Of a stretch of DNA of 39,554 nucleotides, positions 27,928 to 29,530 are shown piece after piece. Source of the stretch: Verrucomicrobiota bacterium (GTDB taxonomy: Bacteria; Verrucomicrobiota; Verrucomicrobiia; Limisphaerales; J093); assembly GCA_022710935.1 (NCBI GenBank), contig JAKLFY010000061.1, positions 1 to 39,554 of the forward strand. The letters run 5' to 3'. Under the pieces are notes generated by a model. That model saw nothing but the letters and a program-made list of their open reading frames with translations, ran no database searches and had not been told where the DNA came from. The position numbers and the translations under genes were made by a program. The first letter of the stretch is position 1; the number at the start of each line of letters is the position of its first letter.

Positions 27928-29400
27928 GTGAGACTCGCTGCCGGCTCGAACGACATCCGTTTCATGCGCCTGGCCCTGCGCCTCGCGTCGCGAGGCTGCG
28001 GCCAGACGTCGCCCAACCCGATGGTCGGGGCCGTGTTGGTCAAGAGCGGACGCGTGATTGGCCGGGGCTGGCATCACCGCGCCGGGCAGCCGCACGCGGA
28101 GATCGAGGCGTTGGACGACGCCGCCCGGCGTGGGCGTTCGGTGCGCGGGGCGACTCTCTACGTGACGCTCGAACCGTGCTGCACCGCGGGACGAACGCCG
28201 CCCTGCACCGAAGCCATCACACGCTCGGGAATTGCCCGGGTCGTCGCCGCGGCAACCGATCCGAACCCGCACCACGCGGGACGAGGCTTCGAGCTCCTGC
28301 GGCAGGCGGGAGTGAAGGTTGGGCACGGGGTGCTTGCCGAGGAGGCGGCGCGGCTCAACGAGTCGTTCAATCACTGGATTGTCGAGCGCATGCCGTTCGT
28401 GACGGTCAAGGCCGCGATGACACTCGATGGCAAGATCGCCGCGGCGACGGGCGAATCGAAGTGGATCACAGGGGCAATCGCCCGCCGCCACGCCATGCAG
28501 TTGCGGCTGGGCGCGGATGCCATCCTGGTGGGCGTGAACACGGTGCTGGCGGATGATCCCGGCCTGACAGCCAGGGGCGCACCTCGGCCCCGACATGGTC
28601 CCGAGGGCGATGTCGGCATCCGATCTGTACGAACTCTCCACTTGCTGAGGAGTCCGCCGCATGCGCGACAAAGCCCCCTCACCCCGTCCCGCTCCCATCC
28701 GATGGGAGAGGGTGCCCCGCCATGCGGGACGGGGGAGGGCGACGGTCTCGCACATCCCACGGATTCCCCTGGAGGCGCCGGGGCCCGAGCCTCCTCGGCG
28801 CCAGTCAAACCGATCCGGCGACTGGTTCTGGATGCCCGCGCGCGCACCCCTCTGGATTGTCGCCTGGTCAGCGATCCCTGGGCGGCCTGGACAACCGTGT
28901 ACGTCGGCCCGATGGCTCCGGAGCATCGCCGGGATGCCCTGGCTCGGCGGGTCAATGTTGTCGTCGCGCCGGAGGTCATGCCACGAAGCGGTGTCCGCGG
29001 CCCGCGGCATCGGGTCGCGGGCCAATCGGCCTGCCGTCCCAAGCTCGATCTCAATTGGATCCTCCGCCAGCTCGGCCGTGAAGAGGTCACTGCGCTGCTG
29101 GTCGAGGGCGGTGGCGAGATCCATGCGTCTCTGTTCGAGTCCGGGCTGGTCCAGCGCGTCGCTTTCTACTACGCCCCGAAGGTTCTTGGCGAGGCAGCCG
29201 GGCGGAAGGCGGTGGCGGGAGCGGGCTTCGGCGATTGGCCTGCAGTGGTCTCGTTGCGGGACATCGAATGGGGCCGCATGGGAACAGACCTTCTCCTGAC
29301 CGCACGCGTTGGACCAGTGCATTTGGAGGTTGTCGATGGGAATCGAGTTTGCGCCGCGTCTGGGCACGCGGCCTGCAGCCGGAGTCCCCATGCGCTGTAG
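27928..29400 (+). CDS. ribD: bifunctional riboflavin biosynthesis protein RibD with an in-frame palindromic insertion
   Basis: I start at GTG 27928 (490 residues); ATG 27964 is an alternative. The deaminase domain is intact: SPNPMVGAVLVKSGRVIGRG, zinc ligands His56 (PHAEIEAL), Cys84 and Cys93 (EPCCTAGRTPPC). The reductase domain follows: MTLDGKIAAATGESKWITG, ILVGVNTVLADDPGLTARG, RRLVLDARARTPLDCRLVSD, LLVEGGGEIHASLFESGLVQ. The two domains deaminate and reduce the pyrimidine intermediate of flavin synthesis. The family is usually 360-400 residues; here about 80 extra residues (about 216-294) separate LTARG from the RRLVLD strand, and they contain a Y-shaped palindrome at 28673-28740 read as SPLTPSRSHPMGEGAPPCGT. 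The frame stays open through it, so the enzyme is probably functional with a surface loop. No FMN riboswitch is visible in the 81-base upstream gap. Confidence 0.9.
   Translation: MRLAAGSNDIRFMRLALRLASRGCGQTSPNPMVGAVLVKSGRVIGRGWHHRAGQPHAEIEALDDAARRGRSVRGATLYVTLEPCCTAGRTPPCTEAITRSGIARVVAAATDPNPHHAGRGFELLRQAGVKVGHGVLAEEAARLNESFNHWIVERMPFVTVKAAMTLDGKIAAATGESKWITGAIARRHAMQLRLGADAILVGVNTVLADDPGLTARGAPRPRHGPEGDVGIRSVRTLHLLRSPPHARQSPLTPSRSHPMGEGAPPCGTGEGDGLAHPTDSPGGAGARASSAPVKPIRRLVLDARARTPLDCRLVSDPWAAWTTVYVGPMAPEHRRDALARRVNVVVAPEVMPRSGVRGPRHRVAGQSACRPKLDLNWILRQLGREEVTALLVEGGGEIHASLFESGLVQRVAFYYAPKVLGEAAGRKAVAGAGFGDWPAVVSLRDIEWGRMGTDLLLTARVGPVHLEVVDGNRVCAASGHAACSRSPHAL
28673..28740. repeat. REP-like palindrome inside the ribD reading frame
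   Basis: The arm CCCTC-A-CCCCGTCCCGC (ending 28692) pairs with GCGGGACGGGG-GAGGG (28724-28739) as 16 base pairs with one bulge. Between the arms is a smaller perfect hairpin TCCCATC-C-GATGGGA (28693-28707). The overall form (CCCTCACCCCG...TCCCAT..GATGGGA...GGGAGGG) is a widespread type of bacterial intergenic palindrome; here it is within a gene. Confidence 0.85.
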
Positions 29401-29420
29401 GCCCGGTGCCCTCACCGGGC
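29401..29420 (+). terminator. hairpin directly after ribD
   Basis: GCCCGGTG-CCCT-CACCGGGC is a perfect 8-base-pair stem starting at the base after the ribD stop codon. No T-tract follows (GGAAGAAC). It may be a terminator, an mRNA stabiliser or another palindromic repeat abutting a stop codon. Confidence 0.45.
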
Positions 29421-29530
29421 GGAAGAACACCGACAACAACCCGATGCACCGTCGCGTGCGCCGCGTTCCAGAGAAATAGTGTGCACCGCGATTCGCGCAA
29501 TGATAGACTGCGGCGAATTCGTTTGTTGAC

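Follow-up and report, generated by a model that had tools for sequence, protein, structure and literature searches.

A palindromic MITE-like element inserted in frame in the RibD reductase domain of a Verrucomicrobiota bacterium is probably tolerated rather than domesticated

Results

The analysed window, a stretch of 39,554 nucleotides from an uncultured bacterium that constitutes contig C218 of a 7.5-Mb draft genome in 259 contigs (G000), harbours ribD (Table 1), the frame of which spans 490 codons from the GTG at 27928 to the TAG at 29400 and includes two mobile-repeat insertions. It carries the zinc and reductase catalytic residues as well as the two-domain fold of RibD, and the best Foldseek match of the predicted structure is B. 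subtilis RibG (4g3m, TM 0.88 by target), with E. coli RibD also matched. The nearest relatives of the protein are from Verrucomicrobiota MAGs, among them Pedosphaera and Limisphaerales. For comparison we used a single congener genome (G001), whose RibD contains no stop and shows 89% identity over residues 1-237 and 85% over residues 282-464. A standalone RibD_C-type reductase gene is located elsewhere in the genome (L293, G000:C180:46814-47464), with an orthologue in G001.

Table 1 Features of the ribD locus, with positions given in the window.
Feature	Position	Strand	Evidence
ribD, bifunctional riboflavin deaminase/reductase	27928..29400	+	Pfam dCMP_cyt_deam_1 and RibD_C; Foldseek; G001 orthologue
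5' part of genus-level long loop	28572..28642	+	alignment: common to G001, without palindrome
MITE 1, 131-bp palindromic element with TA-like ends	28643..28773	+	insert-free G001; covariance model; family alignment
Left terminal inverted repeat of MITE 1, TGCTGAGGAGTCCGCCGCATGCGCGACA	28643..28670	+	family alignment; pattern search
Core Y-shaped palindrome, 68 bases	28673..28740	+	original prediction; similar core-only matches in other genera
Right terminal inverted repeat of MITE 1, family form TACAGAGGAATCCGTGGGATGTGAGACA	28746..28773	-	family alignment; pattern search
3' part of genus-level long loop	28774..28811	+	alignment: common to G001
MITE 2, 137 bp, CAGTGCATCTGGAGG...CCAGATGCACCG	29315..29451	+	absent from G001 ribD; many genome copies
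ribD stop codon TAG, inside MITE 2	29398..29400	+	sequence

The original prediction, made from the DNA letters, held that ribD stays open through a palindromic repeat within the reductase domain, and both points are borne out, the insertion being placed between the ADDPGLTAR and RRLVLD segments. Its extent was overestimated, at about 240 bases and 80 residues. The ribD DNA alignment contains a single internal segment present in the window and absent from G001, and exactly 43 window residues are missing from the G001 protein, so that the inserted DNA amounts to 131 bp with a net gain of 129 bp, or 43 codons. The condition that the original prediction named as refuting it, relatives sharing the extra residues in the absence of a palindrome, holds for about 25-30 of the roughly 80 additional residues, which the congener loop shares, but not for the 43 residues of the element. 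The element, termed MITE 1, is read in frame as residues 238-281 (numbering from the AGA at 27931), with QSPLTPSR and SHPMGEGAPPCGTGEGDGLAHPTDSPGGAGAR among the predicted peptides. A covariance model based on 15 members of the family, one of them the ribD copy, returns the element end to end, over 131 positions, and also retrieves the family from both G000 and G001. The outer arms, 28649-28692 and 28724-28767, also pair, and the previously noticed palindrome is merely the core of this longer element. Both ends were recovered by pattern search; they have decayed to TG/GA instead of TA/TA, for which reason a TA duplication is not literally visible in ribD. The insertion is carried by one genome only, and its unit is unlike every other copy found.

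BLAST matches to the palindrome, of which 23 further ones come from this genome and 45 from the congener, demonstrate that it is not due to chance. Full-length matches number about 15-20 in G000 and about 30 in G001; G004, which belongs to a different genus of the family, has about ten of good quality, and the core hairpin alone yields shorter matches in further genera. The aligned copies extend from TACTGAGGAGTCCGCGGCATACGCGACA to TGTCTCACATCCCACGGATTCCTCTGTA and have the palindrome at their centre, while a second subfamily runs TACTGCCGAGTCGGCTGGATACGCTACA...GTAGTGCATCCCGGTGATTCCTCAGTA. The ends form imperfect inverted repeats, with TA at both ends in many copies, and the net gain equals the element length minus 2 (131/129 in ribD and 155/153 in the G001 Sm_multidrug_ex gene), as a 2-bp target duplication predicts. 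Short, present in tens of copies in both G000 and G001, bounded by terminal inverted repeats, without a transposase gene, and with insert-free sites in the other of the two species for ribD, PGM and Sm_multidrug_ex, the element fits a MITE with a REP-like core, as judged from these sequence features. The earlier description as a REP-type repeat is not supported for the whole TIR-bounded element, although the core hairpin occurs alone elsewhere; REP identity of the whole was rejected on account of its 131 bp, its TIRs and the lack of GTAG at the ends. GACG, equivalent to CGTC in reverse, is found one base outside the core in many copies and is suggestive only.

Around the single ends that were inspected, no transposase sharing the MITE 1 ends was detected up to a distance of 1.5 kb, and a pattern search for an autonomous partner recovered only MITE copies and single degraded ends, with no paired ends around a longer element at the inspected loci; the evidence for mobility therefore consists of the family structure and the insert-free sites. 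Element lengths are skewed towards 2 mod 3 (28 of 42 copies), which was discounted, as the copies share ancestors. We note that many congener copies (L070, L071, L080 and others) carry a nested palindrome of about 30 bp, CCTGCCTGCCGAAGCC...GCAGGCAGG, in the first hairpin loop, i.e. small palindromes insert into palindromes.

MITE 1 was identified in frame in four further genes, based on Pfam and homologues without the segment. In G001, a 155-bp copy is located between domains I and II of a PGM/PMM gene and another copy near the N-terminus of the Sm_multidrug_ex gene, and the corresponding G000 sites on C244 and C213 are empty, the latter reading TTTTCCA/CAAACG across the junction. In G000, a DUF4434 gene contains the element and its 51%-identical homologue in G013 does not, and a propeller gene on C22 is entered in reverse orientation, the G001 and G005 homologues joining query residues 61 and 109 with few bases between them. 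The same element reading frame is used in ribD, PGM/PMM, Sm_multidrug_ex and DUF4434. Including ribD, five unrelated conserved genes with insert-free homologues consequently carry the element in frame, in agreement with the proposed parallel to the Rickettsia elements. An 880-aa frame at G001:C170 was discarded as spurious, having no Pfam match.

Further coding repeats were observed in the congener. Several translated core hairpins (PLPTAWGEGRGEG and similar) are present in its propeller paralogues, and its propeller proteins contain tandem coding core palindromes (L306 188-4249 and 4265-5524; L307 458-1999, reverse) as well as near-identical blocks about 219 bp apart. MITE 1 also lies in frame just upstream of the signal peptide of an outer-membrane efflux protein (L134, G001 C56) and of an ADP-ribosylglycohydrolase (L149, G001 C178); for the latter, a GTG that belongs to the element might serve as start codon.

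The 3' end of ribD is occupied by another element, unrelated to MITE 1 and unmentioned in the original prediction. From 294 first-look candidates, 40 good full matches were obtained, and about half of 20 aligned copies are flanked by 9-bp target duplications (8 or 9 of 9 positions matching), which identifies this segment as a second MITE. It replaces the congener C-terminal AQEK by a longer tail and provides the ribD stop. No 9-bp target duplication is recognisable around the ribD copy.

With respect to the protein, all residues that are invariant in an alignment of 62 sequences are maintained in the window RibD, including the zinc ligands and K160, W178, R192, D208 and E392; the nearly invariant T180 and R215 are likewise present. 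Structure prediction of the loop, as suggested at the outset, was performed using AlphaFold: pLDDT values exceed 90 throughout most of both domains, whereas residues 221-286, which cover the insert, and 471-489 score below 50. The 43 inserted residues are thus predicted to form a probably floppy or disordered loop. Judged from the order of secondary-structure elements, the insert appears to be positioned in the alpha8-beta8 loop, with the reductase substrate bound between it and one other loop (PMC3668577). RibD with the insert probably still works.

The loop is variable in other genomes. The distance from ADDP to the next strand comprises 19-30 residues in most other RibD, 50 in G001 and 93 in the window. 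Translated tandem arrays with 7-bp units occupy this loop in other Verrucomicrobiota RibD, namely AACATCC/AACATTC, read NIQHPTSNIQH (L188, L191, L202, L013 and L199), a GTCAGAG-like unit (L197, L003 and L022) and AGTCCAA (L004). Within G015, the AACATTC array is also interspersed at other positions, with 24 matches at about a dozen places compared to one match for the pattern read backwards. The ribD locus of a Pedosphaera MAG from Baikal has a second 7-bp tandem array, AATCATC, within the same stretch (L188 2872-2900). As translated repeats of other kinds are found in the same loop, it looks like a tolerant site, and the different repeat units at one position suggest separate gains.

Discussion

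Based on the comparison to the congener and the analysis of the element family, we propose that a non-autonomous MITE inserted into a RibD loop after the split from the congener, that the frame was kept and that the insertion is tolerated rather than domesticated, a reading to which we assign a probability of about 0.86. The 131-bp element, with its imperfect TIRs and TA-like ends, would have entered the alpha8-beta8 loop following the species split, likely mobilised by a TA-targeting transposase, and a 2-bp target duplication would give the net gain of 129 bp. This whole-codon gain, in combination with an element frame that is stop-free at that register, would have allowed the reading frame to survive. 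The 43 residues are then presumably translated within a disordered loop next to the site of the reductase substrate, and the insertion may be neutral or mildly costly, with RibD activity likely retained and probably no benefit gained. That RibD probably still works points to tolerance, the most likely state of the insertion.

Alternatively, the insertion may have damaged the reductase domain of a gene that is now decaying, its role having passed to the standalone RibD_C and RibD still being needed for the deaminase half alone. The second RibD_C gene, present on C180 and as an orthologue in G001, could make the reductase step of RibD partly redundant, the second MITE has replaced the RibD C-terminus, and dN/dS between the window and G001 ribD is about twice as high after the insert (0.44) as before it (0.23). 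However, the downstream value is still below 1, and polarisation with outgroups assigns nine substitutions to the window branch and ten to that of the congener; only two affect conserved columns, both of them in the congener. The reductase catalytic residues all remain. Moreover, the standalone gene is found in both species and therefore does not track the insertion. Neither dN/dS nor the polarised substitutions reveal any decay of ribD after the insertion, and we consider this scenario improbable.

The hairpin could instead act mainly at the RNA level, through RNase III cleavage, pausing or attenuation in the ribD mRNA, thereby lowering or splitting the product. The predicted fold of the insert is very stable (-67.7 kcal/mol, z = -2.6, below 98% of shuffles), and MITE hairpins of Neisseria are RNase III substrates (PMC2229807). 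Nevertheless, such a role does not require an in-frame, stop-free insert, rendering it quite improbable as the main effect.

Domestication, as the original prediction had it, would imply that the translated palindrome is kept because the loop benefits RibD by way of regulation, an interaction or a change in affinity. The reading frame and the catalytic residues are indeed intact, a change in a loop bordering the reductase substrate site could alter kinetics (PMC3668577), and several lineages retain long repeat-derived loops at the same position. Conversely, the insert is found in one species only, is predicted to be disordered and differs from the subfamily consensus at 13 positions without sign of constraint. 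In addition, two of the six frames of the consensus are open, which equals the dinucleotide-shuffle expectation (P ~0.5), and no selection for coding is thus evident. Neither a function nor selection for the insert was found, making this reading very unlikely. An assembly or sequencing artefact joining two genome places at the repeat, conceivable for an element repeated in a 259-contig draft, is hardly credible, since the two flanks are the halves of a single ribD and are collinear with that of the congener, the net length is in whole codons and no other copy found has an identical unit.

Protein-coding palindromes and in-frame MITE fusions are already established (PMC10969869, PMC2229807). 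Rickettsia palindromic elements, which are tolerated in an enzyme, gmk (reviewed in PMC2229807), resemble MITE 1 in being palindromes of 100-150 bp that occur in frame in conserved genes, with one frame recurrently used. They differ in that MITE 1 resides in another phylum, has TA-like ends and imperfect TIRs, and has fewer genic copies, the translation of which is predicted from sequence rather than proven. Intragenic REPs with GTAG or CGTC tags, described also in Opitutus terrae, a verrucomicrobium of the same phylum, similarly form protein inserts from palindromes in housekeeping genes (PMC3733652). REPs, however, are 20-40 bp long, carry a GTAG or CGTC tag and are associated with RAYT transposases, unlike the 131-bp, TIR-bounded MITE 1 without GTAG at its ends. 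Among the in-frame MITE fusions, the 107-bp Correia, ERIC/RU-1 and YPAL/RU-2 elements (PMC2229807, PMC10969869) are likewise small TIR elements, some of them with a terminal TA, and their stop-free frames are joined in frame to those of host genes; in contrast, MITE 1 is a new sequence family in Limisphaerales with insert-free homologues for five genes. What is new here is accordingly a MITE family with unusually good insert-free sequences, whereas the phenomenon itself is already known.

A more far-reaching view is that the alpha8-beta8 loop of Limisphaerales RibD is a recurrent landing place, in which unrelated repeats, a MITE as well as three or more kinds of 7-bp tandem repeat, independently became protein, and that the genus regularly sources protein segments from palindromic repeats, some of them now functional; we regard this as doubtful.

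In conclusion, two close species provide clean before/after pairs, in both directions, of mobile palindromes made part of conserved enzymes, in a phylum, the Verrucomicrobiota, with few studied cases of translated palindromes. Owing to these pairs, it becomes testable whether such inserts, once translated, amount to neutral noise or serve as raw material from which proteins gain new segments. They also caution against taking the palindromic repeats of these genomes to be intergenic.
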